64,000 nt of DNA from Tachypleus tridentatus (Eukaryota; Arthropoda; Merostomata; Xiphosura; Limulidae): positions 24,841,276 to 24,905,275 of the forward strand of contig NW_027467782.1 in assembly GCF_004210375.1 (NCBI RefSeq), in the 5' to 3' direction. The position numbers were made by a program, and so were the translations under genes. Positions 1 to 42,483 of the stretch are shown here, piece after piece. The notes beneath the pieces are model-generated. The model was not told where the DNA came from. It did no database searches and saw nothing but the letters and a program-made list of their open reading frames with translations. Every line of letters begins with the position of its first letter. Position 1 is the stretch's first letter.

Positions 1-899
1 ATACCGTATTTTCATACTACATATACTCAACGTAATGTATAGCTTTACGAAAAAAGTCTGACTGAACTTATCGCTTCTTACGGCCCTCTTAGAAACCTAC
101 ATTTCTTACAACACATATCCATGTAATCGTTTTTCACAGTGTACAGTTTAGCCGAAGGATAAACACTAAAGCTTTGCGATAAGTGGCTTTGTGGACAACG
201 TTGTGTGCCTTTTGCCTATTTTTTACTCATACGAGTGAAAGCTATACTGACTATTTAACTCTATTTTACCTGAGACTAAATATCTAGAGGGTGAATAACT
301 TGAACATCCAATTGACATTTAGTAGGCGTTTTCTTTTTGTTTTTGTATGAAACTCTCGTACATTTCAACACGAATATTCTCTGGTTGAAAACTGAGAGTT
401 CTTAATTTCTCAACTCTCCTGGAAAGTCTCTCAGTAGCCTGATACCGATATTTTCAATTGATGGGTATTTTATGCTCACAAGGGCTAAATGGCAAGTCAG
501 AATCACTTAACATTTCTAATTCTAAACAACTGACCAACTTATCATTACCATAAGAAACTTTAGCCGTCTGTTAGACCCGAAGAATGGGAATGACTGCCAT
601 TACTATAACCCGAGCACAACCGAACTTACGGGCTGTATTCAGCTGCATTGTGGCTCGAATATTAAACACTGAGAAACGCAACACTGCATACTGAATATCA
701 GTTATTGCTGGCCCGTCCAAGTAGAATATAATAAGTATAAATTTATGTTATCTTTTAATCTCTGAAAGGATCTGTTTGAAGGAAGAGTGATGTGAAAAAT
801 GTAACAGATTTTAACATGTCCCTAGGGTAATCGACGATTTCTAATTTAAAATACGTTTATATTAAACACTAACTTGTATTGACTTTGTACATCATACAG

Positions 900-1030
900 C
901 TTCGTTGGACTTCGTTGAACAACCATGTCGTAGTTTCTTTTTTGTTTATTTCTTACTATCATCGCTTCGTTGGACTTCTTTGAAAAACCATGTCGTAGTT
1001 TCTTTTTTGTTTATTTCTTACTATCATCCG
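900..1030 (+). repeat. 65-bp tandem duplication upstream of exon A (unit 1)
   Basis: A T-rich 65-bp stretch beginning CTTCGTTGGACTTC is present twice. The same duplication is in unit 3 (near 9389) and a shortened one in unit 4 (near 13,663). Units 2, 5 and 6 have a single copy. It makes a long open but intronic frame, which I do not call coding. Confidence 0.75.
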
Positions 1031-1139
1031 CGTGGCATGACAGTAATTGGATGTCTCACCTTTTTAATTTATGCTTGTATAAAAGGGAAACAACAATCTG
1101 TGCTTTAACAACATTTTTTCTCTCCAAAACACACTCTAG

Positions 1140-1309
1140 TAGCAATGATAATGAAGAAATGGAGTTGGATAGCTCACCAGTTTGGAATTACACGACTGGT
1201 AGTGTCATTAAATTTGAAGAGGATGAAAAACGTGTTATAGAGAAAATAAAGTCTAAAAATAAACCTCAAGGATTTTGTATTGCTAAGAAGAAGTTAAAGA
1301 ACAGTAATG
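1140..1309 (+). CDS. Array unit 1, exon A (type 1)
   Basis: The exon follows the acceptor ACTCTAG and ends at the donor G|GTAAGC. It is 170 nt: one base completing the previous codon, 56 codons and one base left over. It encodes an acidic start (SNDNEEMELDSS), VWNYTTGSV, a charged stretch (KFEEDEKRV) and a lysine-rich end (GFCIAKKKLK). No family is recognised. The open frame runs well upstream and downstream into intron, so the boundaries rest on splice consensus, conservation across units and phase match with exon C before and exon B after. No start codon is needed because this is an internal exon. Confidence 0.72.
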
Positions 1310-1715
1310 GTAAGCAGTCTCTTGTTTGTATCAGAATAGCGTTTCTTTTATTATTATTATTACAGTAAAAGATGACCTGGAGAGATCACCCATTTTAATC
1401 ATTTACACCACTTTATGGTAGTGTGTTGTCTCTCTATAACTTAGATACTAGACACTAAAATGTTGTCATTTAAGAAACGCTTAACATTGCAATTTCTACT
1501 GCCGTGACGTTAGTGAATCGTGCACATGCCACGAATTACGAGAAAGATAATACAATCTGTAAGATACAACACAGCATGAAGTAAGAACTTGAAAAGCAAG
1601 AAATTAAAATATTTGTGACGATTCATTTAGATTTTATCTGTTCTTGGTACAAAACACGTCAGAAGTCCCTTCACCAAGCATCAAGATGATTAATATATGT
1701 CGTGAGTGCAAATCT

Positions 1716-1995
1716 AGTTTGTTTGTTTGCTGTTGAATTTCGCAAAAAGCTACACGAGGGCTATCTGTGCTAGCCGTCCCTAATTTAGCAGTGTAAGACA
1801 AGAGGAAGACAGCTAGTCATCACCACCCACCGCCAACTCTTGGGCTACTCTTTTACCAACGAATAGTGGGATTGACCGTCACATTATAACGCCCCCACGG
1901 CTGAAAGGGCGAGCACGTTTAGCGCGACGGGGATGCGAACCCGCGACCCTCAGATTCCGAGTCGCACGCCTTAACACGCTTGAATATGCCGGGCC
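1716..1995 (-). mobile_element. tRNA-derived SINE, unit 1
   Basis: Read on the minus strand it starts with a tRNA-like head (CCCGGCATATTCAAGCGTG, then GGGTTCGCATCCC as box B), followed by a conserved body and a 3' end rich in AAAC repeats. A 12-bp target-site duplication, GAGTGCAAATCT, lies at 1704-1715 and 1996-2007. It sits in the A-B intron. Confidence 0.88.
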
Positions 1996-2331
1996 GAGTG
2001 CAAATCTAAAGAAAGATGACAGGATTATGTGTTCAATTTATTATTTTAAATTAATTAATTATAGTGGAAACAAAATTATCATGGCAGAATCCGGCAGAAA
2101 ATAACGTGACGGTTAATTTAAAATTACAATGACAACAGTTTTGAACTGATGATGATGATGTCGTATTAAAGGTCTATATGATTTAGTTATTAAAGTCAGG
2201 ATTTACCTGGTGTAGAAGTTGTTGTTATTGTATTTTGAATTTAATTATTTAGTGAAGCAGGTTTTGCATTGTAACTGAAACAATTTTATCTTAACGTTTA
2301 AAATTTCACTTCAATAGTTTTGAGCCCGACT

Positions 2332-2594
2332 TGGCCAGGTGGTTAATACATTGAAATCGTAATCCCAAAGTTTCGAGCTCGAATCCCTGTCGCACCAAAC
2401 ATGTTTGCCCTTTCAGCTGTGGGGACGCTATAATGCGAGGTTCAATCCCTTTATTCGTTGATAAAAGAGTAACCCAAAAGTTGGCGGTGGGTGGTGATGA
2501 CTAGCTGCCTTCCCTCTAGTCTTACACTGCTAAATTAGGGACGGCTATCAAAGACAGTCCTTGTGTATCATTGCACGAACGTAAAAAAACAAAA
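2332..2594 (+). mobile_element. tRNA-derived SINE, opposite orientation, unit 1
   Basis: This is the same SINE family read on the plus strand (GAGCCCGACTTGGCCAGGT, box B GAGCTCGAATCCC, then the shared body and an A-rich tail). It is more diverged than the minus-strand copy 336 bp before it. The two form an inverted pair inside one intron. Confidence 0.82.
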
Positions 2595-2765
2595 GGACAA
2601 TACGATGTAGTTATTAAAGTCATAGTTTACCTCGTGTAAAAGCTGCTGTTATTGTGTTTTGAATTTAATTATTTAATCTAGCATATTCCTTACTAGATAT
2701 CAAAGCAAAACTAGTTTAGATGTTATTTAATTTTGTAGAAATCAGTATTTTTTATCTTGACTTAG

Positions 2766-2844
2766 GTGAATCTTGGCCAATTAATGATACAATCTGGAAT
2801 GAAGAAGAAGAATCAGTTCCTTCCGGGATTTTCATACCCAAAAG
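2766..2844 (+). CDS. Array unit 1, exon B
   Basis: The acceptor is TTGACTTAG and the donor is AG|GTATGT. At 79 nt it supplies two bases to finish the glycine codon begun in exon A, 25 codons, and two leftover bases. It encodes ESWPINDTIWNEEEESV and then SGIFIPK: two tryptophans, an acidic run and a hydrophobic-basic end. Sequence is almost invariant between units. A 43-bp tandem duplication covers its 3' end and donor. Confidence 0.72.
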
Positions 2845-2901
2845 GTATGTATTCTCAAGTTCCTACCGGGATTTTCATACCCAATAGGTATGTATTCTCA
2901 A
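2816..2901 (+). repeat. 43-bp duplication across the exon B donor (unit 1)
   Basis: Two copies of a 43-bp stretch (GTTCC..CCGGGATTTTC..GTATGTATTCTCAA) cover the end of exon B and its donor, so two AG|GTATGT-type donors lie 43 nt apart. Use of the second adds 43 nt and ends exactly on an in-frame TAG. Equivalent pairs occur in units 2 to 5 at the same place, starting near 7026, 11303, 15574 and 19524. Confidence 0.85.
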
Positions 2902-2918
2902 ATAAATCCTGACTTTTA

Positions 2919-3183
2919 TCTAAGTGGTTGCCAGGACGCTCTGCTCACAATACCCGGAAAACTGTTTTGAGCTCCTGTCACACCAAACACATTCAACCTA
3001 TTTAGTCGAAAGGGAAAATTAAAATATGACGGTCAATTTCATTATTCGTTGATCTAAGAGTAACCCAATAGTTGACAGTGTAAGGTGTTGACTTGGTGTC
3101 TTTCCTTTAGACTACATTTGCTGAAAATATGGTTGGTGTATACAACCTACGTGTTGTTTCGCGCAAAATTTAAAAGAAACCAA
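2919..3183 (+). mobile_element. Old, degenerate SINE, unit 1
   Basis: Remnants of the same SINE body (TGGTTGCCAGGACGCTCTG, GACGGTCAATTTCATTATTCG, AGAGTAACCCAATAGTTG) lie just after exon B. Equivalent copies start near 7128, 11,405, 15,676, 19,626 and 23,898. Confidence 0.65.
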
Positions 3184-4131
3184 ATCAAATAGAATAAGTG
3201 ACGAAAAAAAATTAAAATTATAAAAATATTTTAAAATAGTTTCTTAGCAAATATGTAACAGTTCATGTATATTATATATTGTTGTTCTTAGTTGTTTTTA
3301 TCTCACCATAAAACTTGTGTTTTGATAAGAATGCGTACTATTGATGATTATAATCTGTTATCAAGCAGAAAAACTGTTATCTTAAAAATTCAATGAAAAG
3401 TATGTAATCCAATGATATAATTAGGTTTCATAGTTACTTATATAACCTATGTATTTCTTCAATACATTGCACCTTTGCTGCTTGGCTACAACTAGTTAAA
3501 CGCTACCTGTCATAACATCTTTGCCGTCAACATCTTGTAGAGTCGTTTTCACTTATAATTTGTTTTGGGACCTTAATTCTTGTATTTTGATTCAAGCAGA
3601 CAAATTTGGTAACATATGTTTTATGTGACTTTGAAATAACCACAATTCGTTATCTATTCCACCATATAAATATTCAAGTACGTTTAATAATCATTTGACA
3701 AACCTCAACTACTGTTTTTCTCTATACACAATTGCAACCATTTTTCATTATAAGTAACTTTAACGTGGGTATTATAGTAACTTGTGAATGAGAGTAGAGA
3801 AGAATATGTTAATTCCATTACATCTGCAATATCCACTATTATCGAGGACCTCTGTATAATACCAGGACTCCACAGTTTGACTCATACACGACAGATCTAG
3901 TAGTTATTGAAATACTGTTCATACTGTTATATTGTCTGAACAATAATTGTTTTAGTGTGGATCGTGATATTTACCAATTTTATCTCAGTTGTTAACCATT
4001 AACATTAAGGTACTGATTTATCAATATAACACAATTCATTTAAATAAATATTGATCTTTTCTCATACAAGTCACTTTTGTGTAAATATACTATGACAAAT
4101 TAATTATTTGTAAGTATTGCTTCTATTCCAG

Positions 4132-4248
4132 TGACTTTGTCCTGAAGAAGAAATCATTGAAGGAGAGGATACAGAACAGCCTCAGTAGTGTGTTTCGTCG
4201 CAAACATCAGAACAAGCAGAAAAGAATAAGAGTCTGGTGTCACGACTC
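4132..4248 (+). CDS. Array unit 1, exon C
   Basis: The acceptor CTATTCCAG and the donor TC|GTAAGT bound 117 nt (1 + 38 codons + 2). It encodes DFVLKKKSLKERIQ, then SSVFRRKHQNKQKR and ends in VWCHD. The middle is strongly basic and resembles a nuclear-localisation or nucleic-acid-binding stretch, which is inference only. The two leftover bases are completed by the first base of exon A in the next unit, which links units in frame. Confidence 0.72.
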
Positions 4249-5354
4249 GTAAGTTCTAGGTTTTTATGAATTAACTAGGATACCGTATTTTCATACTACA
4301 TATACTCAACGTAATGTATAGCTTTACGAAAAAAGTCTGACTGAACTTATCGCTTCTTACGGCCCTTTTAGAAACATACATTTCTTACTACACATATCCA
4401 TGTAATCGTTTTTCACAGTGTACAGTTTAGCCGAAGGATAAACACTAAAGCTTTTGCGATAAGTGGCTTTGTGGACAACGTTGTGTGCCTTTTGCCTATT
4501 TTTACTCATACGAGTGAAAGCTATACTGACTATTTAACTCTATTTTACCTGAGACTAAATATCTAGAGGGTGAATAACTTGAACATCCAATTGACATTTA
4601 GTAGGCGTTTTCTTTTTGTTTTTGTATGAAACTCTCGTACATTTCAACACGAATATTCTCTGGTTGAAAACTGAGAGTTCTTAATTTCTCAACTCTCCTG
4701 GAAAGTCTCTCAGTAGCTTGATACCGATATTTTCAATTGATGGGTATTTTATGCTCACAAGGGCTAAATGGCAAGTCAGAATCACTTAACATTCCTAATT
4801 CTAAACAACTGACCAACTACTCATTACCATAAGAAACTTTAGCCGTCTGTTAGACCCGAAGAATGGGAATGACTGCCATTACTATAACCCGAGCACAACC
4901 GAACTTACGGGCTGTATTCAGCTGCATTGTGGCTCGAATATTAGACACTGAGAAACGCAACACTGCATACTGAATATCAGTTATTGCTGGCCCGTCCAAG
5001 TAGAATATAATAAGTATAAATTTATGTTATCTTTTAATCTCTGAAAGGATCTGTTTGAAGGAAGAGTGATGTGAAAAATGTAACAGATTTTAACATGTCC
5101 CTAGGGTAATCGACGATTTCTAATTTAAAATACGTTTATATTAAACACTAACTTGTATTGACTTTGTATATCATACAGCTTCGTTGGACTTCTTTGAACA
5201 ACCATGTCGTAGTTTCGCTTTTTTTGTTTATTTCTTACTATCATCCGCGTGGCATGACAGTAATTGGATGTCTCACCTTTTAATTTATGCTTGTATAAAA
5301 GGGAAACAACAATCTGTGCTTTAACAACATTTTTCTCTCCAAAACACACTCTAG

Positions 5355-5518
5355 TAGCAATGAAGAGATTGAGTGGGATAGCTCATCCGTTTGGAATTAC
5401 ACGATTGGTCGTGTTGTTGAATTTGAAAAGGATGAAAAACGTGTTATAGAGATATTAAAGTCTAAGAACAAACCTCACGGATTTTGTATTGGTAAGAAGA
5501 TGTTAAAGAACAGTAATG
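5355..5518 (+). CDS. Array unit 2, exon A (type 2)
   Basis: This is a 164-nt variant, two codons shorter than type 1, still in frame. It reads SNEEIEWDSSSVWNYT and then GRVVEFEKDEKR, with GFCIGKKMLK at the end. The donor is G|GTTAGC rather than GTAAGC, so it may be weaker. The difference from type 1 is concentrated in the acidic start and the middle, while the WNYT and GFCI segments are kept. Confidence 0.66.
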
Positions 5519-5924
5519 GTTAGCAGTCTCTTGTTTGTATCAGAATAGCGTTTCTTTTATTATTATTATTACAGTAAAAGATGACCTGGAGAGATCACCC
5601 ATTTTAATCATTTACACCACTTTATGGTAGTGTGTTGTCTGTCTATAACGTAGTTACTAGACACTAAAATGTTGTCACTTAAGAAACGCTTAACATTGCA
5701 ATTTGTTCTGCCGTGACGTTAGTGAATCGTGCACATGCCACGAATTACGAGAATAATAATACAATCTGTAGGATACAACACAGCATGAAGTAAGAACTTG
5801 AAAAGCAAGAAATTAAAATATTTGTGACGATTCATTTAGATTTTATCTGTTCTTGGTACAAAACACGTCAGAAGTCCCTTCACCAAGCATCAAGATGATT
5901 AATATATGTCGTGAGTGCAAATCT

Positions 5925-6204
5925 AGTTTGTTTGTTTGCTGCTGAATTTCGCGAAAAGCTACACGAGGGCTATCTGTGCTAGCCGTCCCTAATTTAGCAG
6001 TGTAAGACGAGAGGGAAAACAGCTAGTCATCACCACCCACCGCCAACTCTTGGGCTACTCTTTTACCAACGAATAGTGGGATTGACCGTCACATTATAAC
6101 GCCCCACGGCTGAAAGGGCGAGCACGTTTAGCGCGACGGGGATGCGAACCCGCGACCCTCAGATTCCGAGTCGCACGCCTTAACACGCTTGGTCATGCCG
6201 GGCC
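5925..6204 (-). mobile_element. tRNA-derived SINE, unit 2
   Basis: It has the same insertion site and the same GAGTGCAAATCT duplication as in unit 1, so the insertion predates the array expansion. The head reads GGTCATGCC. Confidence 0.87.
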
Positions 6205-6531
6205 GAGTGCAAATCTAAAGAAAGATGATAGGATTAAGAGTTCAATTTTTTATTTTTAAATTAATTAATTATAGGGGAAACAAAATTATCATGGCATAAT
6301 CCGGCAGAAAATAACGTGACGGTTAATTTAAAATTATGATAAAAACAGTTTTGAACTGATGATGATGATGTCGTATTAAAGGTCCATATGATTTAGTTAT
6401 TAAAGTCAGGATTTACCTGGTGTAGAAGTTGTTGTTATTGTATTTTGAATTTAATTATTTAGTGAAGCAGGTTTTGCATTGTAACTGAAACAATTTTATC
6501 TTAACGTTTAAAATTTCACTTCAATAGTTTT

Positions 6532-6804
6532 GAGCCCGACTTGGCCAGATGGTTAATACATTGAAATCGTAATCCCAAAGTTTCGAGTTCGAATCCCTGT
6601 CGTGCCAAACATGTTTGCCCTTTCAGCTGTGGGGACGCTATAATGTGAGGTTCAATCCCTTTATTCGTTGATAAAAGAGTAGCCCAAAAGTTGGCGGTGG
6701 GTGGTGATGACTAGCTGCCTTCCCTCTAGTCTTACACTGCTAAATTAGGGACGGCTATCAAAGACAGTCCTTGTGTATCATTGCACGAATGTAAAAAAAC
6801 AAAA
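6532..6804 (+). mobile_element. tRNA-derived SINE, opposite orientation, unit 2
   Basis: Plus-strand partner of the inverted pair, at the same place as in unit 1. Confidence 0.82.
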
Positions 6805-6975
6805 GGACAATACGATGTAGTTATTAAAGTCATAGTTTACCTCGTGTAAAAGCTGCTGTTATTGTGTTTTGAATTTAATTATTTAATATAGCAGATTCCT
6901 TACTAGATATCAAAGCAAAACTAGTTTAGATGTTATTTAATTTTGTAGAAATCAGTATTTTTTATCTTGACTTAG

Positions 6976-7054
6976 GTGAATCTTGGCCAATTAATCATAC
7001 AATCTGGAATGAAGAAGAAGAATCAGTTCCTTCCGGGATTTTCATACCCAAAAG
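6976..7054 (+). CDS. Array unit 2, exon B
   Basis: It has 79 nt with the same splice sites and phases as in unit 1. The one coding change seen is PINHTIW instead of PINDTIW, shared with unit 5. The 43-bp donor duplication is present. Confidence 0.68.
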
Positions 7055-8339
7055 GTATGTATTCTCAAGTTCCTACCGGGATTTTCATACCCAATAGGTA
7101 TGTATTCTCAAATAAATCCTGACTTTTATCTAAGTGGTTGCCAGGACGCTCTGCTCACAATACCCGGAAAACTGTTTTGAGCTCCTGTCACACCAAACAT
7201 ATTCAACCTATTTAGTCGAAAGGGAAAATTAAAATATGACGGTCAATTTCATTATTCGTTGATCTAAGAGTAACCCAATAGTTGACAGTGTAAGGTGTTG
7301 ACTTGGTGTCTTTCCTTTAGACTACAATTGCTGAAAATATGGTTGGTGTATACAGCCTACGTGTTGTTTCGCGCAAAATTTAAAAGAAACCAAATCAAAT
7401 AGACTAAGTATCGAAAAAAATTAAAATTATAAAAATATTTTAAAATAGTTTCTCAGTAAATATGTAACAGTTCATGTATATTATATATTGTTGTTCTTAG
7501 TTGTTTTATCTCACCATAAAACTTGTGTTTTGATAAGAATGCGTACTATTGATGATTATAATCTGTTATCAAGCAGAAAAACTGTTAACTTAAAATTCAA
7601 TGAAAAGTATGTAATCCAATGATATAATTAGGTTTCATAGTTACTTATATAACCTATGTATTTCTTCAATACATTGCACCTTTGCTGCTTGGCTACAACT
7701 AGTTAAACGCTACCTGTCATAACATCTTTGCCGTCAACATCTTGTAGAGTCGTTTTCACTTATAATTTGTTTTGGGACCTTAATTCTTGTATTTTTGATT
7801 CAAGCAGACAAATTTGGTAACATATGTTTTATGTGACTTTGAAATAACCATAATTCGTTATCTATTCCACCATATAAATATTTAAGTACGTTTAATAATC
7901 ATCTGACAAACCTCAACTACTGTTTTTCTCTATACACAATTGCAACCATTTTTCATTATAAGTAACTTTAGTGTGGGTATTATAGTAACTTGCGAATGAG
8001 AGTAGAGAAGAATATGTTAACTCCATTACATCTGCAATATCCACTATTATCGAGCACCTCTGTATTATACCAGGACTCCACAGTTTCACTGACACACGAC
8101 AGATCTAGTAGTTATTGAAATACTGTTCATACTGTTATACTGTCTGAACAATAATTGTTTTAGTGTGGATCGTGATATTTACCAATTTTATCTCAGTTGT
8201 TAACCATTAACATTAAGGTACTGATTTATCAATATAACACAATTCATTTAAATAAATATTGATCTTCTCTCATACAAGTCACTTTTGTGTAAATATACTA
8301 TGACAAATTAATTATTTGTAAGTATTGCTTCTATTCCAG

Positions 8340-8459
8340 TGACTTTGTCCTGAAGAAAAAATCATTGAAGGAGAGGATACAGAACAGCCTCAGTAGTGTG
8401 TTTCGTCGCAAACATCAGAACAAGCAGAAAAGAAGGAGAAGAGTCTGGTGTCACGACTC
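8340..8459 (+). CDS. Array unit 2, exon C
   Basis: At 120 nt it is one codon longer than in unit 1, reading KQKRRRRVWCHD. The insertion is in frame and increases the run of arginines. It joins the exon A of unit 3 in phase. Confidence 0.68.
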
Positions 8460-9628
8460 GTAAGTTCTAGGTTTTATGAATTAACTAGGATACCGTATTT
8501 TCATACTACATATACTCAACGTAATGTATAGCTTTACGAAAAAAGTCTGACTGAACTTATCGCTTCTTACGGCCCTTTTAGAAACCTACATTTCTTACTA
8601 CACATATCCATGTAATCGTTTTTCACAGTGTACAGTTTAGCCGAAGGATAAACACTAAAGCTTTGCGATAAGTGGCTTTGTGGACAACGTTGTGTGCCTT
8701 TTGCCTATTTTTTACTCATACGAGTGAAAGCTATACTGACTATTTAACTCTATTTTACCTGAGACTAAATATCTAGAGGGTGAATAACTTGAACATCCAA
8801 TTGACATTTAGTAGGCGTTTTCTTTTTGTTTTTGTATGAAACTCTCGTACATTTCAACACGAATATTCTCTGGTTGAAAACTGAGAGTTCTTAATTTCTC
8901 AACTCTCCTGGAAAGTCTCTCAGTAGCCTGATACCGATATTTTCAATTGATGGGTATTTTATGCTCACAAGGGCTAAATGGCAAGTCAGAATCACTTAAC
9001 ATTTCTAATTCTAAACAACTGACCAACTTATCATTACCATAAGAAACTTTAGCCGTCTGTTAGACCCGAAGAATGGGAATGACTGCCATTACTATAACCC
9101 GAGCACAACCGAACTTACGGGCTGTATTCAGCTGCATTGTGGCTCGAATATTAAACACTGAGAAACGCAACACTGCATACTGAATATCAGTTATTGCTGG
9201 CCCGTCCAAGTAGAATATAATAAGTATAAATTTATGTTATCTTTTAATCTCTGAAAGGATCTGTTTGAAGGAAGAGTGATGTGAAAAATGTAACAGATTT
9301 TAACATGTCCCTAGGGTAATCGACGATTTCTAATTTAAAATACGTTTATATTAAACACTAACTTGTATTGACTTTGTACATCATACAGCTTCGTTGGACT
9401 TCGTTGAACAACCATGTCGTAGTTTCTTTTTTGTTTATTTCTTACTATCATCGCTTCGTTGGACTTCTTTGAAAAACCATGTCGTAGTTTCTTTTTTGTT
9501 TATTTCTTACTATCATCCGCGTGGCATGACAGTAATTGGATGTCTCACCTTTTTAATTTATGCTTGTATAAAAGGGAAACAACAATCTGTGCTTTAACAA
9601 CATTTTTTCTCTCCAAAACACACTCTAG

Positions 9629-9798
9629 TAGCAATGATAATGAAGAAATGGAGTTGGATAGCTCACCAGTTTGGAATTACACGACTGGTAGTGTCATTAA
9701 ATTTGAAGAGGATGAAAAACGTGTTATAGAGAAAATAAAGTCTAAAAATAAACCTCAAGGATTTTGTATTGCTAAGAAGAAGTTAAAGAACAGTAATG
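9629..9798 (+). CDS. Array unit 3, exon A (type 1)
   Basis: It is 170 nt and by eye identical to the unit 1 exon A. The upstream intron also shares the 65-bp tandem duplication found in unit 1, so the front half of unit 3 is a recent copy or conversion of the unit 1 type. Confidence 0.7.
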
Positions 9799-10204
9799 GT
9801 AAGCAGTCTCTTGTTTGTATCAGAATAGCGTTTCTTTTATTATTATTATTACAGTAAAAGATGACCTGGAGAGATCACCCATTTTAATCATTTACACCAC
9901 TTTATGGTAGTGTGTTGTCTCTCTATAACTTAGATACTAGACACTAAAATGTTGTCATTTAAGAAACGCTTAACATTGCAATTTCTACTGCCGTGACGTT
10001 AGTGAATCGTGCACATGCCACGAATTACGAGAAAGATAATACAATCTGTAAGATACAACACAGCATGAAGTAAGAACTTGAAAAGCAAGAAATTAAAATA
10101 TTTGTGACGATTCATTTAGATTTTATCTGTTCTTGGTACAAAACACGTCAGAAGTCCCTTCACCAAGCATCAAGATGATTAATATATGTCGTGAGTGCAA
10201 ATCT

Positions 10205-10484
10205 AGTTTGTTTGTTTGCTGTTGAATTTCGCAAAAAGCTACACGAGGGCTATCTGTGCTAGCCGTCCCTAATTTAGCAGTGTAAGACAAGAGGGAAGAC
10301 AGCTAGTCATCACCACCCACCGCCAACTCTTGGGCTACTCTTTTACCAACGAATAGTGGGATTGACCGTCACATTATAACGCCCCACGGCTGAAAGGGCG
10401 AGCACGTTTAGCGCGACGGGGATGCGAACCCGCGACCCTCAGATTCCGAGTCGCACGCCTTAACACGCTTGAATATGCCGGCCC
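10205..10484 (-). mobile_element. tRNA-derived SINE, unit 3
   Basis: Same site and flanking duplication as in unit 1. The head ends GCCGGCCCGAG instead of GCCGGGCCGAG, a change shared with unit 6. Confidence 0.87.
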
Positions 10485-10810
10485 GAGTGCAAATCTAAAG
10501 AAAGATGACAGGATTATGTGTTCAATTTATTATTTTAAATTAATTAATTATAGTGGAAACAAAATTATCATGGCATAATCCGGCAGAAAATAACGTGACG
10601 GTTAATTTAAAATTACAATGACAACAGTTCTGAACTGATGATGATGATGTCGTATTAAAGGTCCATATGATTTAGTTATTAAAGTCAGGATTTACCTGGT
10701 GTAGAAGTTGTTGTTATTGTATTTTGAATTTAATTATTTAGTGAAGCAGGTTTTGCATTGTAACTGAAACAATTTTATCTTAACGTTTAAAATTTCACTT
10801 CAATAGTTTT

Positions 10811-11083
10811 GAGCCCGACTTGGCCAGGTGGTTAATACATTGAAATCGTAATCCCAAAGTTTCGAGTTCGAATCCCTGTCGCACCAAACATGTTTGCCCT
10901 TTCAGCTGTGGGGACGCTATAATGTGAGGTTCAATCCCTTTATTCGTTGATAAAAGAGTAGCCCAAAAGTTGGCGGTGGGTGGTGATGACTAGCTGCCTT
11001 CCCTCTAGTCTTACACTGCTAAATTAGGGACGGCTATCAAAGACAGTCCTTGTGTATCATTGCACGAACGTAAAAAAAAAAAG
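10811..11083 (+). mobile_element. tRNA-derived SINE, opposite orientation, unit 3
   Basis: Plus-strand partner of the inverted pair. The A tail is an uninterrupted run here. Confidence 0.82.
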
Positions 11084-11252
11084 GACAATACGATGTAGTT
11101 ATTAAAGTCATAGTTTACCTCGTGTAAAAGCTGCTGTTATTGTGTTTTGAATTTAATTATTTAATATAGCAGATTCCTTACTAGATATCAAAGCAAAACT
11201 AGTTTAGATGTTATTTAATTTTGTAGAAATCAGTATTTTTATCTTGACTTAG

Positions 11253-11331
11253 GTGAATCTTGGCCAATTAATGATACAATCTGGAATGAAGAAGAAGAAT
11301 CAGTTCCTTCCGGGATTTTCATACCCAAAAG
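11253..11331 (+). CDS. Array unit 3, exon B
   Basis: It is 79 nt, of the PINDTIW type, with the same phases and donor duplication as in unit 1. Confidence 0.68.
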
Positions 11332-12616: not shown

Positions 12617-12735
12617 TGACTTTGTCCTGAAGAAAAAATCATTGAAGGAGAGGATACAGAACAGCCTCAGTAGTGTGTTTCGTCGCAAACATCAGAACAA
12701 GCAGAAAAGAATGAAAGAGTCTGGTGTCACGACTC
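12617..12735 (+). pseudogene. Array unit 3, exon C with +2 frameshift
   Basis: The exon is 119 nt instead of 117 or 120. It reads normally to KQNKQKR's equivalent (KHQNKQKR), after which two extra bases give MKESGVTT in place of VWCHD. Only one base is left over at the donor. Spliced to unit 4 exon A, the frame is wrong and meets a stop after about 35 codons (near GATGAAAAACGTGTTATAG). Either the reading ends here, or the indel is a sequence or assembly error. Confidence 0.6.
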
Positions 12736-13896: not shown

Positions 13897-14066
13897 TAGC
13901 AATGATAATGAAGAAATGGAGTTGGATAGCTCACCAGTTTGGAATTACACGACTGGTAGTGTCATTAAATTTGAAGAGGATGAAAAACGTGTTATAGAGA
14001 AAATAAAGTCTAAAAATAAACCTCAAGGATTTTGTATTGCTAAGAAGAAGTTAAAGAACAGTAATG
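13897..14066 (+). CDS. Array unit 4, exon A (type 1)
   Basis: This is an intact 170-nt copy of the type 1 exon. The preceding intron carries a shortened form of the 65-bp duplication. Confidence 0.68.
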
Positions 14067-14472
14067 GTAAGCAGTCTCTTGTTTGTATCAGAATAGCGTT
14101 TCTTTTATTATTATTATTACAGTAAAAGATGACCTGGAGAGATCACCCATTTTAATCATTTACACCACTTTATGGTAGTGTGTTGTCTCTCTATAACTTA
14201 GATACTAGACACTAAAATGTTGTCATTTAAGAAACGCTTAACATTGCAATTTCTACTGCCGTGACGTTAGTGAATCGTGCACATGCCACGAATTACGAGA
14301 AAGATAATACAATCTGTAAGATACAACACAGCATGAAGTAAGAACTTGAAAAGCAAGAAATTAAAATATTTGTGACGATTCATTTAGATTTTATCTGTTC
14401 TTGGTACAAAACACGTCAGAAGTCCCTTCACCAAGCATCAAGATGATTAATATATGTCGTGAGTGCAAATCT

Positions 14473-14752
14473 AGTTTGTTTGTTTGCTGTTGAATTTCGC
14501 AAAAAGCTACACGAGGGCTATCTGTGCTAGCCGTCCCTAATTTAGCAGTGTAAGACAAGAGGGAAGACAGCTAGTCATCACCACCCACCGCCAACTCTTG
14601 GGCTACTCTTTTACCAACGAATAGTGGGATTGACCGTCACATTATAACGCCCCACGGCTGAAAGGGCGAGCACGTTTAGCGCGACGGGGATGCGAACCCG
14701 CGACCCTCAGATTCCGAGTCGCACGCCTTAACACGCTTGAATATGCCGGGCC
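14473..14752 (-). mobile_element. tRNA-derived SINE, unit 4
   Basis: Same site and flanking duplication as in unit 1. Confidence 0.87.
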
Positions 14753-15079
14753 GAGTGCAAATCTAAAGAAAGATGACAGGATTATGTGTTCAATTTATTA
14801 TTTTTAAATTAATTAATTATAGTGGAAACAAAATTATCATGGCATAATCCGGCAGAAAATAACGTGACGGTTAATTTAAAATTACAATGACAACAGTTTT
14901 GAACTGATGATGATGATGTCGTATTAAAGGTCCATATGATTTAGTTATTAAAGTCAGGATTTACCTGGTGTAGAAGTTGTTGTTATTGTATTTTGAATTT
15001 AATTATTTAGTGAAGCAGGTTTTGCATTGTAACTGAAACAATTTTATCTTAACGTTTAAAATTTCACTTCAATAGTTTT

Positions 15080-15354
15080 GAGCCCGACTTGGCCAGGTGG
15101 TTAATACATTGAAATCGTAATCCCAAAGTTTCGAGCTCGAATCCCTGTCGCACCAAACATGTTTGCCCCTTCAGCTGTGGGGACGATATAATGCGAGGTT
15201 CAATCCCTTTATTCGTTGATAAAAGAGTAGCCCAAAAGTTGGCGGTGGGTGGTGATGACTAGCTGCCTTCCCTCTAGTCTTACACTGCTAAATTAGGGAC
15301 GGCTATCAAAGACAGTCCTTCTGTATCATTGCACGAACGTAAAAAAAACAAAAG
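15080..15354 (+). mobile_element. tRNA-derived SINE, opposite orientation, unit 4
   Basis: Plus-strand partner. It shares GACGATATAATGCGAGG with unit 6 only. Confidence 0.82.
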
Positions 15355-15523
15355 GACAATACGATGTAGTTATTAAAGTCATAGTTTACCTCGTGTAAAA
15401 GCTGCTGTTATTGTGTTTTGAATTTAATTATTTAATCTAGCATATTCCTTACTAGATATCAAAGCAAAACTAGTTTAGATGTTATTTAATTTTGTAGAAA
15501 TCAGTATTTTTATCTTGACTTAG

Positions 15524-15602
15524 GTGAATCTTGGCCAATTAATGATACAATCTGGAATGAAGAAGAAGAATCAGTTCCTTCCGGGATTTTCATACCCAAA
15601 AG
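15524..15602 (+). CDS. Array unit 4, exon B
   Basis: It is 79 nt, of the PINDTIW type, with intact splice sites and phases. Confidence 0.68.
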
Positions 15603-16889
15603 GTATGTATTCTCAAGTTCCTACCGGGATTTTCATACCCAATAGGTATGTATTCTCAAATAAATCCTGACTTTTATCTAAGTGGTTGCCAGGACGCTCT
15701 GCTCACAATACCCGGAAAACTGTTTTGAGCTCCTGTCACACCAAACACATTCAACCTATTTAGTCGAAAGGGAAAATTAAAATATGACGGTCAATTTCAT
15801 TATTCGTTGATCTAAGAGTAACCCAATAGTTGACAGTGTAAGGTGTTGACTTGGTGTCTTTCCTTTAGACTACATTTGCTGAAAATATGGTTGGTGTATA
15901 CAACCTACGTGTTGTTTCGCGCAAAATTTAAAAGAAACCAAATCAAATAGAATAAGTGACGAAAAAAAATTAAAATTATAAAAATATTTTAAAATAGTTT
16001 CTCAGCAAATATGTAACAGTTCATGTATATTATATATTGTTGTTCTTAGTTGTTTTTATCTCACCATAAAACTTGTGTTTTGATAAGAATGCGTACTATT
16101 GATGATTATAATCTGTTATCAAGCAGAAAAACTGTTATCTTAAAAATTCAATGAAAAGTATGTAATCCAATGATATAATTAGGTTTCATAGTTACTTATA
16201 TAACCTATGTATTTCTTCAATACATTGCACCTTTGCTGCTTGGCTACAACTAGTTAAACGCTACCTGTCATAACATCTTTGCCGTCAACATCTTGTAGAG
16301 TCGTTTTCACTTATAATTTGTTTTGGGACCTTAATTCTTGTATTTTGATTCAAGCAGACAAATTTGGTAACATATGTTTTATGTGACTTTGAAATAACCA
16401 TAATTCGTTATCTATTCCACCATATAAATATTCAAGTACGTTTAATAATCATCTGACAAACCTCAACTACTGTTTTTCTCTATACACAATTGCAACCATT
16501 TTTCATTATAAGTAACTTTAACGTGGGTATTATAGTAACTTGTGAATGAGAGTAGAGAAGAATATGTTAATTCCATTACATCTGCAATATCCACTATTAT
16601 CGAGGACCTCTGTATAATACCAGGACTCCACAGTTTGACTCATACACGACAGATCTAGTAGTTATTGAAATACTGTTCATACTGTTATATTGTCTGAACA
16701 ATAATTGTCTTAGTGTGGATCGTGATATTTACCAATTTTATCTCAGTTGTTAACCATTAACATTAAGGTACCGATTTATCAATATAACACAATTCATTTA
16801 AATAAATATTGATCTTTTCTCATACAAGTCACTTTTGTGTAAATATACTATGACAAATTAATTATTTGTAAGTATTGCTTCTATTCCAG

Positions 16890-17006
16890 TGACTTTGTCC
16901 TGAAGAAGAAATCATTGAAGGAGAGGATACAGAACAGCCTCAGTAGTGTGTTTCGTCGCAAACATCAGAACAAGCAGAAAAGAATAAGAGTCTGGTGTCA
17001 CGACTC
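16890..17006 (+). CDS. Array unit 4, exon C
   Basis: It is 117 nt and matches unit 1 exon C, including KQKRIRVWCHD. Units 1 and 4 also share intron variants, which suggests that units 4-6 arose as a copy of a 1-3 block. Confidence 0.68.
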
Positions 17007-17852
17007 GTAAGTTCTAGGTTTTTATGAATTAACTAGGATACCGTATTTTCATACTACATATACTCAACGTAATGTATAGCTTTACGAAAAAAGTCTGACT
17101 GAACTTATCGCTTCTTACGGCCCTTTTAGAAACATACATTTCTAACTACACATATCCATGTAATCGTTTTTCACAGTGTACAGTTTAGCCGAAGCATAAA
17201 CACTAAAGCTTTTGTGATAAGTGGCTTTGTGGACAACGTTGTGTGCCTTTTGCCTATTTTTACTCATACGAGTGAAAGCTATACTGACTATTTAACTCTA
17301 TTTTACCTGAGACTAAATATCTAGAGGGTGAATAACTTGAACATCCAATTGACATTTAGTAGGCGTTTTCTTTTGTTTTTGTTTTGTATGAAATTCTCTC
17401 GTTCTTACATTTGAACACGAATATTCTCTGGTTCACAAAAACTCAGAATTCTTAATTTTTCCAACTAAGAAACTCCTCTAAAATCTCTCAGTAGCTTCAG
17501 GACTCAGTAGCTATAAGTATAAATTTATGTTATCTTTTAATCTCTGAAGGATCTGTTTGAAGGAAGAGTGATGTGAAAATGTAACAGATTTTAACATGTC
17601 CTTAGGGTAATCGACGATTTCTAATTTAAAATACGTTTACATTAAACTTTAACTTGTATTGACTTTGTATATCATACAGCTTCGTTGAACTTCTTTGAAC
17701 AACCATGTCGTAGTTTCTTTTTTATTTATTTCTTACTATCATCCGCGTGGCATGACAGTAATTGGATGTCTCACCTTTTAATTTATGCTTGTATAAAAGG
17801 GAAACAACAATCTGTGTTTTAACAACATTTTTCTCTCCAAAACACACTCTAG

Positions 17853-18015
17853 TAGCAATGAAGAGATTGATTGGGATAGCTCATCCGTTTGGAATTATAC
17901 GATTGGTCGTGTTGTTGAATTTGAAAAGGATGAAAACGTGTTGATGAGATATTAAAGTCTAAGAACAAACCTCACGGATTTTGTATTGGTAAGAAGATGT
18001 TAAAGAACAGTAATG
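17853..18015 (+). pseudogene. Array unit 5, exon A (type 2) with -1 frameshift
   Basis: This is a type 2 exon (SNEEIDWDSSSVWNYT) of 163 nt. One A is lost from the A-run in GATGAAAAACG, so the frame changes and stops soon after (DENVLMRY then stop). Splice sites are still present. The same base is lost in unit 6, which points either to a shared inherited lesion or to homopolymer error. Confidence 0.6.
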
Positions 18016-18421
18016 GTTAGCAGTCTCTTGTTTGTATCAGAATAGCGTTTCTTTTATTATTATTATTACAGTAAAAGATGACCTGGAGAGATCACCCATT
18101 TTAATCATTTACACCACTTTATGGTAGTGTGTTGTCTGTCAATAACGTAGTTACTAGACACTAAAATGTTGTCACTTAAGAAACGCTTAACATTGCAATT
18201 TGTTCTGCCGTGACGTTAGTGAATCGTGCACATGCCACGAATTACGAGAATAATAATACAATCTGTAGGATACAACACAGCATGAAGTAAGAACTTGAAA
18301 AGCAAGAAATTAAAATATTTGTGACGATTCATTTAGATTTTATCTGTTCTTGGTACAAAACACGTCAGAAGTCCCTTCACCAAGCATCAAGATGATTAAT
18401 ATATGTCGTGAGTGCAAATCT

Positions 18422-18702
18422 AGTTTGTTTGTTTGCTGCTGAATTTCGCGAAAAGCTACTCGAGGGCTATCTGTGCTACCCGTCCCTAATTTAGCAGTGT
18501 AAGACGAGAGGGAAAACAGCTAGTCATCACCACCCACCGCCAACTCTTGGGCTACTCTTTTACAAACGAATAGTGGGATTGACCGTCACATTATAACGCC
18601 CCCACGGCTGAAAGGGCGAGCACGTTTAGCGCGACGGGAATGCGAACCCGCGACCCTCAGATTCCGAGTCGCACGCCTTAACACGCTTGGTCATGCCGGG
18701 CC
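18422..18702 (-). mobile_element. tRNA-derived SINE, unit 5
   Basis: Same site and flanking duplication as in unit 1. The head reads GGTCATGCC as in unit 2. Confidence 0.87.
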
Positions 18703-19029
18703 GAGTGCAAATCTAAAGAAAGATGATAGGATTAGGAGTTCAATCTTTTATTTTTAAATTAATTAATTATAGGGGAAACAACATTATCATGGCATAATCC
18801 GGCAGAAAATAACGTGACGGTTAATTTAAAATTATGATAAAAACAGTTTTGAACTGATGATGATGATGTCGTATTAAAGGTCCATATGATTTAGTTATTA
18901 AAGTCAGGATTTACATGGTGTAGAAGTTGTTGTTATTGTATTTTGAATTTAATTATTTAGTGAAGCAGGTTTTGCATTGTAACTGAAACAATTTTATCTT
19001 AACGTTTAAAATTTCACTTCAATAGTTTT

Positions 19030-19303
19030 GAGCCCGACTTGGCCAGATGGTTAATACATTGAAATCGTAATTTCAAAGTTTCGAGTTCGAATCCCTGTCG
19101 TGCCAAACATGTTTGCCCTTTCAGCTGTGGGGACGCTATAATGTGAGGTTCAATCCCTTTATTCGTTGATAAAAGAGTAGCCCAAAAGTTGGCGGTGGGT
19201 GGTGATGACTAGCTGCCTTCCCTCTAGTCTTACACTGCTAAATTAGGGACGGCTATCAAAGACAGTCCTTGTGTATCATTGCACGAATGTAAAAAAACAA
19301 AAG
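19030..19303 (+). mobile_element. tRNA-derived SINE, opposite orientation, unit 5
   Basis: Plus-strand partner of the inverted pair. Confidence 0.82.
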
Positions 19304-19473
19304 GACAATACGATGTAGTTATTAAAGTCATAGTTTACCTCGTGTAAAAGCTGCTGTTATTGTGTTTTGAATTTAATTATTTAATATAGCAGATTCCTTA
19401 CTAGATATCAAAGCAAAACTAGTTTAGATGTTATTTAATTTTGTAGAAATCAGTATTTTTTATCTTGACTTAG

Positions 19474-19552
19474 GTGAATCTTGGCCAATTAATCATACAA
19501 TCTGGAATGAAGAAGAAGAATCAGTTCCTTCCGGGATTTTCATACCCAAAAG
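19474..19552 (+). CDS. Array unit 5, exon B
   Basis: It is 79 nt, of the PINHTIW type as in unit 2, with the 43-bp donor duplication present. The exon itself is intact, although exon A before it is broken. Confidence 0.6.
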
Positions 19553-20840
19553 GTATGTATTCTCAAGTTCCTACCGGGATTTTCATACCCAATAGGTATG
19601 TATTCTCAAATAAATCCTGACTTTTATCTAAGTGGTTGCCAGGACGCTCTGCTCACAATACCCGGAAAACTGTTTTGAGCTCCTGTCACACCAAACATAT
19701 TCAACCTATTTAGTCGAAAGGGAAAATTAAAATATGACGGTCAATTTCATTATTCGTTGATCTAAGAGTAACCCAATAGTTGACAGTGTAAGGTGTTGAC
19801 TTGGTGTCTTTCCTTTAGACTACAATTGCTGAAAATATGGTTGATGTATACAGCCTACGTGTTGTTTCGCGCAAAATTTAAAAGAAGCCAAATCAAATAG
19901 ACTAAGTATCGAAAAAAAATTAAAATTATAAAAATATTTTAAAATAGTTTCTCAGTAAATATGTAACAGTTCATGTATATTATATATTATTGTTCTTAGT
20001 TGTTTTTATCTCACCATAAAACTTATGTTTTGATAAGAATGTGTACTATTGATGATTATAATCTGTTATCAAGCAGAATAACTGTTAACTTAAAAATTCA
20101 GTGAAAAGTATGTAATCCAATGATATAATTAGGTTTCATAGTTACTTATATAACCTATGTATTTCTTCAATACATTGCACCTTTGCTGCTTGGCTACAAC
20201 TAGTTAAACGCTACCTGTCATAACATCTTTGCCTTCAACATCTTGTAGAGTCGTTTTCACTTATAATTTGTTTTGGGACCTTAATTCTTCTATTTTTGAT
20301 TCAAGCAGACAAATTTGGTAACATATGTTTTATGTGACCCTGAAATAACCATAATTCGTTATCTATTCCACCATATAAATATTTAAGTACGTTTAATAAT
20401 CATCTGACAAACCTCAACTACTGTTTTTCTCTATACACAATTGCAACCATTTTTCATTATAAGTAATTTTATTGTAGGTATTATAGTAACTTGTGAATGA
20501 GAGTAGAGAAGAACATGTTAATTCCATTACATCTGCAATATCCACTATTATCGAGCACCTCTGTATAATAGCAGGACTCCACAGTTTGACTCATACACGA
20601 CAGATCTAGGAGTTATTGAAATACTGTTCATACTGTTATATTGTCTGAACAATAATTGTCTTAGTGTGGATCGTGTTATTTACCAATTTTATCTCAGTTG
20701 TTAACCATTAACATTAAGGTACTGATTTATCAATATAACACAATTCATTTAAATAAATATTGATCTTTTCTCATACAAGTCACTTTTGTGTAAATATACT
20801 ATGACAAATTAATTATTTGTAAGTATTGCTTCTATTCCAG

Positions 20841-20972
20841 TGACTTTGTCCTGAAGAAAAGATCATTTATGGAGAGGATACAGAACAGCCTCAGTAGTGT
20901 GTTTCGTCGCAAACATCAGAACAAGCAGAAAAGAATGACAGATCCTCTCGACCAGTCCTGGTGTCACGACTC
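20841..20972 (+). CDS. Array unit 5, exon C (long form)
   Basis: At 132 nt this is the longest exon C and still in phase (1 + 43 codons + 2). The start reads KKRSFMERIQ. Between KQKR and WCHD it carries MTDPLDQS, five codons longer than unit 1. All length changes among exon C copies fall at this same hinge. Confidence 0.62.
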
Positions 20973-22077
20973 GTAAGTTCTAGGTTTTTATGAATTAACT
21001 AGGATACCGTATTTTCATACTACATATACTCAACGTAATGTATCGCTTTACGAAAAAAGTCTGACTGAACTTATCGCTTCTTACGGCCCTCTCACAAACC
21101 TACATTTCTTACAACACATATCCATGTAATCGTTTTTCACAGTGTACAGTTTAGCCGAAGGATAAACACTAAAGCTTTTGCGATAAGTGGCTTTGTGGAC
21201 AACGTTGTGTGCCTTTTGCCTATTTTTACTCATACGAGTGAAAGCTATACTGACTATTTAACTCTATTTTACCTGAGACTAAATATCTAGAGGGTGAATA
21301 ACTTGAACATCCAATTGACATTTAGTAGGCGTTTTCTTTTTGTTTTTGTATGAAACTCTCGTACATTTCAACACGAATATTCTCTGGTTGAAAACTGAGA
21401 GTTCTTAATTTCTCAACTCTCCTGGAAAGTCTCTCAGTAGCCTGATACCGATATTTTCAATTGATGGGTATTTTATGCTCACAAGGGCTAAATGGCAAGT
21501 CAGAATCACTTAACATTTCTAATTCTAAACAACTGACCAACTTATCATTACCATAAGAAACTTTAGCCGTCTGTTAGACCCGAAGAATGGGAATGACTGC
21601 CATTACTATAACCCGAGCACAACCGAACTTACGGGCTGTATTCAGCTGCATTGTGGCTCGAATATTAAACACTGAGAAACGCAACACTGCATACTGAATA
21701 TCAGTTATTGCTGGCCCGTCCAAGTAGAATATAATAAGTATAAATTTATGTTATCTTTTAATCTCTGAAAGGATCTGTTTGAAGGAAGAGTGATGTGAAA
21801 AATGTAACAGATTTTAACATGTCCCTAGGGTAATCGACGATTTCTAATTTAAAATACGTTTATATTAAACACTAACTTGTATTGACTTTGTACATCATAC
21901 AGCTTCGTTGGACTTCGTTGAACAACCATGTCGTAGTTTCTTTTTTGTTTATTTCTTACTATCATCCGCGTGGCATGACAGTAATTGGATGTCTCACCTT
22001 TTTAATTTATGCTTGTATAAAAGGGAAACAACAATCTGTGCTTTAACAACATTTTTTCTCTCCAAAACACACTCTAG

Positions 22078-22246
22078 TAGCAATGATAATGAAGAAATGG
22101 AGTTGGATAGCTCACCAGTTTGGAATAACACGACTGGTAGTGTCATTAAATTTGAAGAGGATGAAAACGTGTTATAGAGAAAATAAAGTCTAAAAATAAA
22201 CCTCAAGGATTTTGTATTGCTAAGAAGAAGTTAAAGAACAGTAATG
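22078..22246 (+). pseudogene. Array unit 6, exon A (type 1) with -1 frameshift
   Basis: It is 169 nt, type 1, with WNNTTG instead of WNYTTG. One A is missing from GATGAAAAACG, which gives DENVL then stop. Acceptor and donor are intact. It is not preceded by the 65-bp intron duplication. Confidence 0.6.
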
Positions 22247-22652
22247 GTAAGCAGTCTCTTGTTTGTATCAGAATAGCGTTTCTTTTATTATTATTATTAC
22301 AGTAAAAGATGACCTGGAGAGATCACCCATTTTAATCATTTACACCACTTTATGGTAGTGTGTTGTCTCTCTATAACTTAGATACTAGACACTAAAATGT
22401 TGTCATTTAAGAAACGCTTAACATTGCAATTTCTACTGCCGTGACGTTAGTGAATCGTGCACATGCCACGAATTACGAGAAAGATAATACAATCTGTAAG
22501 ATACAACACAGCATGAAGTAAGAACTTGAAAAGCAAGAAATTAAAATATTTGTGACGATTCATTTAGATTTTATCTGTTCTTGGTACAAAACACGTCAGA
22601 AGTCCCTTCACCAAGCATCAAGATGATTAATATATGTCGTGAGTGCAAATCT

Positions 22653-22932
22653 AGTTTGTTTGTTTGCTGTTGAATTTCGCAAAAAGCTACACGAGGGCTA
22701 TCTGTGCTAGCCGTCCCTAATTTAGCAGTGTAAGACAAGAGGGAAGACAGCTAGTCATCACCACCCACCGCCAACTCTTGGGCTACTCTTTTACCAACGA
22801 ATAGTGGGATTGACCGTCACATTATAACGCCCCACGGCTGAAAGGGCGAGCACGTTTAGCGCGACGGGGATGCGAACCTGCGACCCTCAGATTCCGAGTC
22901 GCACGCCTTAACACGCTTGAATATGCCGGCCC
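22653..22932 (-). mobile_element. tRNA-derived SINE, unit 6
   Basis: Same site and flanking duplication as in unit 1, with the unit 3-type GCCGGCCCGAG end. Confidence 0.87.
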
Positions 22933-23259
22933 GAGTGCAAATCTAAAGAAAGATGACAGGATTATGTGTTCAATTTATTATTTCTAAATTAATTAATTAT
23001 AGTGGAAACAAAATTATCATGGCATAATCCGGCAGAAAATAACGTGACGGTTAATTTAAAATTACAATGACAACAGTTTTGAACTGATGATGATGATGTC
23101 GTATTAAAGGTCCATATGATTTAGTTATTAAAGTCAGGATTTACCTGGTGTAGAAGTTGTTGTTATTGTATTTTGAATTTAATTATTTAGTGAAGCAGGT
23201 TTTGCATTGTAACTGAAACAATTTTATCTTAACGTTTAAAATTTCACTTCAATAGTTTT

Positions 23260-23533
23260 GAGCCCGACTTGGCCAGGTGGTTAATACATTGAAATCGTAA
23301 TCCCAAAGTTTCGAGCTCGAATCCCTGTCGCACCAAACATGTTTGCCCCTTCAGCTGTGGGGACGATATAATGCGAGGTTCAATCCCTTTATTCGTTGAT
23401 AAAAGAGTAACCCAAAAGTTGGCGGTGGGTGGTGATGACTAGCTGCCTTCCCTCTAGTCTTACACTGCTAAATTAGGGACGGCTATCAAAGACAGTCCTT
23501 CTGTATCATTGCACGAACGTAAAAAAACAAAAG
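23260..23533 (+). mobile_element. tRNA-derived SINE, opposite orientation, unit 6
   Basis: Plus-strand partner of the inverted pair. Confidence 0.82.
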
Positions 23534-23703
23534 GACAATACGATGTAGTTATTAAAGTCATAGTTTACCTCGTGTAGAAGCTGCTGTTATTGTGTTTTGA
23601 ATTTAATTATTTAATCTAGCATATTCCTTACTAGATATCAAAGCAAAACTAGTTTAGATGTTATTTAATTTTGTAGAAATCAGTATTTTTTATCTTGACT
23701 TAG

Positions 23704-23782
23704 GTGAATCTTGGCCAATTAATGATACAATCTGGAATGAAGAAGAAGAATCAGTTCCTTCCGGGATTTTCATACCCAAAAG
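23704..23782 (+). CDS. Array unit 6, exon B, last exon of the array
   Basis: It is 79 nt, of the PINDTIW type. The donor region is triplicated rather than duplicated. No exon C follows, because the unit breaks off in the B-C intron near 24,370, so in this assembly the exon has no downstream partner. Confidence 0.58.
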
Positions 23783-23882
23783 GTATGTATTCTCAAGTTC
23801 CTACCGGGATTTTCATACCCAATAGGTATGTATTCTCAAGTTCCTACCGGGATTTTCATACCCAATAGGTATGTATTCTCAA
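23754..23882 (+). repeat. 43-bp triplication across the exon B donor (unit 6)
   Basis: Three copies start at 23754, 23797 and 23840, each with a GTATGT donor. The second and third are nearly identical, so the extra copy is recent. Confidence 0.88.
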
Positions 23883-24354
23883 ATAAATCCTGACTTTTAT
23901 CTAAGTGGTTGCCAGGACGCTCTGCTCACAATACCCGGAAAACTGTTTTGAGCTCCTGTCACACCAAACACATTCAACCTATTTAGTCGAAAGGGAAAAT
24001 TAAAATATGACGGTCAATTTCATTATTCGTTGATCTAAGAGTAACCCAATAGTTGACAGTGTAAGGTGTTGACTTGGTGTCTTTCCTTTAGACTACATTT
24101 GCTGAAAATATGGTTGGTGTATACAACCTACGTGTTGTTTCGGGCAAAATTTAAAAGAAACCAAATCAAATAGAATAAGTGACGAAAAAAAATTAAAATT
24201 ATAAAAATATTTTAAAATTGTTTCTTAGCAAGTATGTAGCAGTTCATGTATATTATATATTGTTGTTCTTAGTTGTTTTTATCTCACCATAAAACTTATG
24301 TTTTGATAAGAATGTGTACTATTGATGATTATAATCTGTTATCAAGCAGAAAAA

Positions 24355-24386
24355 CTGTTATCTTAAAAATCTGTTATCTTAAAGAA
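24355..24386 (+). other. Right-hand breakpoint of the array
   Basis: The last unit runs into CTGTTATCTTAAAAAT and then repeats CTGTTATCTTAAAG before unique sequence begins. The short direct repeat at the junction fits a replication-slippage or end-joining breakpoint, or the edge of a tandem duplication. Confidence 0.6.
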
Positions 24387-26760: not shown

Positions 26761-26797
26761 CAGTTACATACATAAAGAAATATTTACTTTTACATAC

Positions 26798-27806: not shown

Positions 27807-27959
27807 CTAGAGAAATAACAACTTTGTCAATTCATGCATTAGCAAAAGCAAATCACAAAAAACGAAAAATACATTGTCTTTACATGTAAAACATTTATTA
27901 TAGATTAAGGAAAGTTGGTGTATTCATTCTATGCATGAGCTTATGAATATACAGAACCA

Positions 27960-36060: not shown

Positions 36061-36113
36061 TAACAGGAATATGAGAGAATAATGGATGATGATTTCCTTG
36101 ATAAACAAATCCC

Positions 36114-42450: not shown

Positions 42451-42483
42451 TTTCTTTCCATTGTTAACTTTACATTTTTCAAC

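Follow-up and report, generated by a model that had tools for sequence, protein, structure and literature searches.

Reading frames and splice phases in a tandem exon array

Does a row of exons whose splice phases fit from one unit to the next encode one long repeat protein, or can such a fit arise by other means? The question is raised by a tandem array in a 64,000-nucleotide stretch of the genome of the horseshoe crab Tachypleus tridentatus (RefSeq assembly GCF_004210375.1, contig NW_027467782.1, positions 24,841,276 to 24,905,275 of the forward strand), hereafter called the window and numbered from its first letter. The array occupies positions 1..24370 on the plus strand and is composed of six direct units, defined by self-BLAST, anchors and pairwise identities, in which three exons (A, B and C) recur. 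A prediction made from the letters alone had described it as a gene that grows by whole exon trios under selection. We put at about three in four the probability that the units are partial tandem copies of a small horseshoe-crab PDZ gene, organized as 5' exon, B, C, A and rest of the PDZ domain, which were shuffled by recombination and have partly decayed. This order is favoured because three related gene models show B-C-A followed by the remainder of a PDZ domain.

Relatives of the exon trio and their PDZ domain

The spliced module matches five proteins with an expectation value (E) of at most 1 (10 candidates), and a profile of two relatives adds a sixth (5 matches at E ≤ 0.01 among 648 candidates). 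The six proteins (P0001 to P0006) derive from five T. tridentatus loci annotated as uncharacterised; there was no Limulus protein among the matches of this search, which reaches just relatives sharing exact 5-residue words. The order B-C-A-PDZ is found in three of the five loci (P0002, P0003 and P0006; LOC143250382, LOC143256647 and LOC143224669), while LOC143232694 reads B-C-A-B-C, the organization of P0001, a model that ends at WCHDS. These four loci carry the same exons in the same order as the array, but the three with B-C-A-PDZ end in a PDZ remainder that was not found in the window. P0004 is an isoform that reads as though exon A were skipped, and P0005 is made of A-B plus unspliced flanks and begins just 5' of A. 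Identity of exon B to the relatives reaches 26 of 26 residues. The basic part differs, being FCCKHQTKQE or FGRKHQYKPHKQE in the relatives and FRRKHQNKQK in the array. In unit 1, the stretch directly 5' of exon A (intron sequence if A is spliced in) gives on translation the N-terminal 31 residues of P0005 (31/31), so the T. tridentatus genome that P0005 comes from, or a very close one, contains near-identical units.

The original prediction recognised no known family in the module. This no longer stands, as exon A begins the PDZ domain in P0002 (31.9 bits) and P0006 (27.3 bits), both above the Pfam cut-off for PF00595 (23.2 bits), and in P0003, which scores just under it. A PDZ match is absent from P0001, P0004 and P0005 in Pfam. 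In P0002 the match covers residues 124-199 and exon A ends near residue 147; by this alignment, exon A would encode the first PDZ strands together with the carboxylate-binding loop (PFGF), and the remainder would come from the missing exon. The best solved-structure matches of the B-C-A-PDZ proteins are the PDZ domains of KIAA1719 (which we take to be GRIP2; E 2.7e-5), PAR-6B (1.5e-4) and CASK (1.6e-4). The similarity to the KIAA1719, PAR-6 and CASK domains is weak and concerns the PDZ part alone, and of this domain the window has only the initial part. A Pfam search with two spliced A-B-C modules gave no match, the A-B-C module alone gives a best E of 1.7 against solved structures, and none of three proteins searched in NCBIfam is above cut-off. 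When the rest-of-PDZ piece was searched by tblastn against the 64-kb window the best E was 0.92, which is no real match, and neither exon C nor the PDZ remainder was found downstream of B6 within the window. A complete PDZ domain was not found in the window. Among the papers listed on horseshoe-crab PDZ domains and on T. tridentatus exon shuffling, none deals with this family by its title or abstract opening.

Organization of the array

The units start at positions 1, 4280, 8490, 12766, 17038 and 21004. They have a length of about 4.2 kb, as originally described, and are 95.6-99.7% identical to one another (15 pairs). The trio is present in units 1-5. The incomplete sixth unit has exons A and B without C, and its match to unit 1 stops inside the B-C intron, where a 16-bp sequence is locally duplicated at the junction that forms the right edge of the array (24350..24383). 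At the left end, position 1 matches position 4280, which lies 32 bases 3' of exon C1, so the array probably extends leftward past the window start.

Exon A is found at 1140..1309, 5355..5518, 9629..9798, 13897..14066, 17853..18015 and 22078..22246 (A1 to A6; 170, 164, 170, 170, 163 and 169 nt) and encodes an acidic, Trp-bearing linker and the predicted first PDZ strands. Exon B (2766..2844, 6976..7054, 11253..11331, 15524..15602, 19474..19552 and 23704..23782) has 79 nt in all six units; the B1 peptide begins with ESWPINDTIWNEEEE, and B6 is the final exon of the array. Exon C (4132..4248, 8340..8459, 12617..12735, 16890..17006 and 20841..20972) measures 117, 120, 119, 117 and 132 nt in units 1-5, respectively. 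C1 encodes a basic peptide (FRRKHQNKQKR to WCHD) and, if left unspliced, runs into a TAA stop that spans its donor. C2 and C5 are in frame, the latter with the residues TDPLDQ also present in P0006. Every exon copy has AG at its 5' side and GT at its 3' side. A 43-bp tandem duplication that includes the exon B end and donor (2815..2901 in unit 1) is present in two copies in units 1-5 and in three copies in unit 6.

Two versions of exon A coexist: type I in units 1, 3, 4 and 6, and type II in units 2 and 5. In type II the end donor is weakened, GTTAGC replacing GTAAGC, and both units feature an internal donor (ATTG/GTAAG, the slash marking the splice point; last exon base 5491 in A2 and 17988 in A5) that is found in none of the four type I units. 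With type II the module is probably shorter than the 122 codons originally assumed, because the P0001 and P0005 proteins join exactly at the point of this donor (GFCI/GESWP). The acceptor of exon A is doubled (CTAG/TAG/CAATG, as in A1); one of these acceptors would account for the residues SSN of P0001 and the other for SN of P0003.

A dispersed repeat of about 260 bp occurs twice per unit in opposite orientation (1726-1996, 2324-2579 and equivalents) and once outside the array at 48502-48773, the array copies being ~79-90% identical to the outside copy. It presumably resembles a tRNA-derived short interspersed nuclear element; the Rfam and tRNA scans of the window gave no match.

Splice phases and the broken frame

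In intact copies the introns have phase 1 (A>B), phase 2 (B>C) and phase 2 (C>A), and in units 1 and 4 the trio adds up to 170 + 79 + 117 = 366 nt, or 122 codons. Only 15 of 20,000 random trios of equal lengths, drawn from unit 1 with its exons included, are open in a fixed frame; the open frame is thus not due to chance but reflects coding sequence. The phase-perfect 122-codon module of the original prediction holds to this extent, but three exons break the frame: C3 has two extra bases, while A5 and A6 have each lost one. The change in C3 falls where the exon C copies differ in length. Conceptual splicing from A1 yields 399 open codons (390 when the internal donor of the type II exons is used) before a stop 33 codons into A4, since the reading frame is lost towards the end of C3. 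No continuous open frame runs through the array. The expectation that n units give n x 122 codons is contradicted by the three breaks, by the missing C6 and by this stop, and the array as assembled is unlikely to encode one long repeat protein.

The borders of the block account for the fit of the phases. Since the order in three of the related loci is B-C-A-PDZ, C>A is an ordinary intron of a single-copy B-C-A-PDZ gene, and the real junction between units is A>B. Exon C does fit the A of the following unit, as was noted, but this is the native intron and not the unit boundary. In the window the B-C-A block has phase 1 at both outer borders (the end of A and the start of B), with which the proteins of the relatives agree. 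The original idea of an expandable exon trio is borne out. Because the block is 1-1 symmetric it can be duplicated in frame without selection, and the phase fit, which had been taken as a sign of selection on the joined frame, is no such evidence. As judged from protein sequences, the 5' exon is joined to B at METN/G and GTAHE/G, C>A joins fit P0001, P0002, P0003 and P0006, and A>B joins fit P0001 and P0005.

Origin of the array

In the ancestral arrangement that we favour, exon A would end in phase 1 to meet the PDZ remainder and exon B would start in phase 1 to meet the 5' exon. Unequal recombination would have duplicated a block containing B-C-A, and the copies would be kept similar through exchange between units (crossing-over and conversion), each extra copy preserving the frame at splicing with no need for selection. 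The array may be transcribed, possibly with one or two modules joined as in P0001. A>B joins would swap the later part of the PDZ domain for exon B and lead to products without a working PDZ pocket. The site patterns of the units are mosaic. Exon A groups units 2 and 5, 11 sites at unit positions 2378-3380 group units 2, 3 and 5, and a third pattern is given by a 65-bp duplication 5' of exon A (899..1028 in unit 1) common to units 1, 3 and 4 (minus a few bases in unit 4) and not found in units 2, 5 and 6. Unequal crossing-over and conversion would produce such a mosaic.

Several observations weigh against this origin. Units 1, 2 and 4 are each fully open on their own, and the length changes of exon C preserve the frame in four of five copies. 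The single-base losses of A5 and A6 share one run of A and might stem from errors of assembly. The A>B join is crossed in the model P0001 (B-C-A-B-C), which makes joined products possible. On the PDZ side, P0003 reaches 21.0 bits, and the structure model of P0006 has a mean predicted local distance difference test score (pLDDT) of 32.1, too poor for confirming the fold. The relatives are, moreover, database-predicted gene models whose exon borders were deduced from protein sequence.

Repetition of multi-exon blocks in frame is found in the human LPA gene (apolipoprotein(a)), whose KIV-2 repeat consists of blocks of ~5.5 kb with homogenised copies. There, complete domains are repeated and one protein is made, whereas in the array a PDZ domain is cut by the block and the frame does not run through. 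For horseshoe crabs, tandem expansion is likewise described in the main text of PMC7210998, which reports 230 tandem gene clusters in Carcinoscorpius rotundicauda; those clusters are defined on annotated gene copies, while three internal exons repeat here, and the term PDZ does not occur in that main text. The T. tridentatus array would be a young example of symmetric (1-1) exon blocks multiplying in frame by default, and it cautions that a fit of phases alone is not proof of selection.

The duplicated gene might itself be mobile, although we consider this unlikely. B-C-A-PDZ would then be a travelling exon cassette with a phase-1 acceptor that landed at several loci onto unrelated 5' exons, its 1-1 core B-C-A multiplying in tandem at some sites and giving transcripts with varying numbers of half-PDZ modules. 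The 5' pieces do differ: METN in P0003, a sequence starting with MADKKKR in P0001, and a DUF4187 piece in P0006 (LOC143224669 isoform X2; 51 bits, cut-off 29). The latter, called GPATCH11-like because GPATCH11 carries DUF4187, looks to be joined to B-C-A-PDZ at a phase-1 join. If the cassette were real, horseshoe crabs would show exon shuffling in progress.

Other explanations of the units

The units could alternatively be separate short genes, each giving a TATA-driven A-B-C transcript that terminates at the TAA just 3' of exon C. The sequence TATAAAAG, a putative promoter, is found in six of six units about 60 nt 5' of exon A (1078..1085, 62 nt 5' of A1, with further copies at 5294, 9567, 13835, 17792 and 22016). 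An in-frame stop (TCG-TAA) crosses the donor in all five C exons at the WCHDS point where P0001 ends, and P0005 starts just 5' of A. Type I exons A contain an in-frame AUG codon (ATG at 1159, 9648, 13916 and 22097), and ATTAAA lies 635-892 bp 3' of each of the five C exons. However, no AATAAA is present within 900 bp 3' of C, type II units (2 and 5) lack an in-frame ATG 5' of A and contain such codons only late within the exon, and the upstream in-frame ATG of type I (1051) precedes the putative TATA box. The GTAAGT after C is also a good donor, and its use for C>A agrees with the P0001, P0002, P0003 and P0006 proteins. The units do not qualify as complete genes, each having a start, a stop and all exons of its own, as no PDZ remainder was found, units 2 and 5 offer no in-frame ATG upstream of A, and C is missing from unit 6. 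We consider short genes improbable.

Slightly less probable still is a single gene for a long protein of 122-codon modules, the breaks being assembly errors or skipped exons. It would agree with the phases of the intact copies, with the rarity of open random trios and with the joining of two modules in P0001. This gene would nevertheless have to accommodate three frame breaks, a sixth unit without exon C and a terminal exon that was not found in the window, and the phase fit it appeals to needs no selection. A 366-residue query made of three modules gave 3 matches at E ≤ 0.01 of 3957 candidates (0.55-1.75 x 366 residues), and each of these proteins has at most two copies of any one exon.

Divergence between the two types of exon A is concentrated in the exon, where 18 of 162 sites show fixed differences; the neighbouring intron has 25 in 830 sites (Fisher p = 4e-5 against the exon) and the upstream sequence 4 in 795. 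Thirteen of the 18 changes are non-synonymous (13 in 131 non-synonymous sites), but synonymous sites are raised too (5 in 28; p = 0.32 for non-synonymous versus synonymous sites), with non-synonymous divergence (dN) of 0.106 and synonymous divergence (dS) of 0.204. Positive selection on exon A was not accepted on these grounds, as an old converted tract accounts for the split equally well as diversifying selection. A reservoir of variable exons, in which such selection would keep types I and II apart and conversion or splicing would pass variants from the array to a full gene, is therefore the least credible explanation, all the more as both types are found in separate relatives (P0002 and P0003).

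Surroundings of the array

To the right of the array, an exon on the minus strand at ~27.5 kb matches the M-HEAT part of ATR (PF25030, E 4.8e-9), and an apparent next ATR exon at 26793-26900 on the same strand shows 55.6% identity over 36 residues to a vertebrate stretch. The pair spans 26793-27831. No further ATR exon was seen leftward in the window with that vertebrate stretch as query. The array apparently lies either antisense inside an ATR intron or where this copy of ATR is broken.

A viral origin was considered and rejected: six stretches matched a pattern in viral contigs, and none was a relative. Pieces of a Tc1/mariner-like transposase are found in two overlapping frames at 60532-61190 on the minus strand, with HTH_Tnp_Tc3_2 and DDE_3 below the Pfam cut-off. 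An open frame of 367 codons without Pfam match at 42439-43542 on the plus strand might, as a guess, be the first open reading frame of a retroelement. Positions 35211-36062 are occupied by a tandem repeat of ~850 bp with units of 38, 76 and 318 bp.

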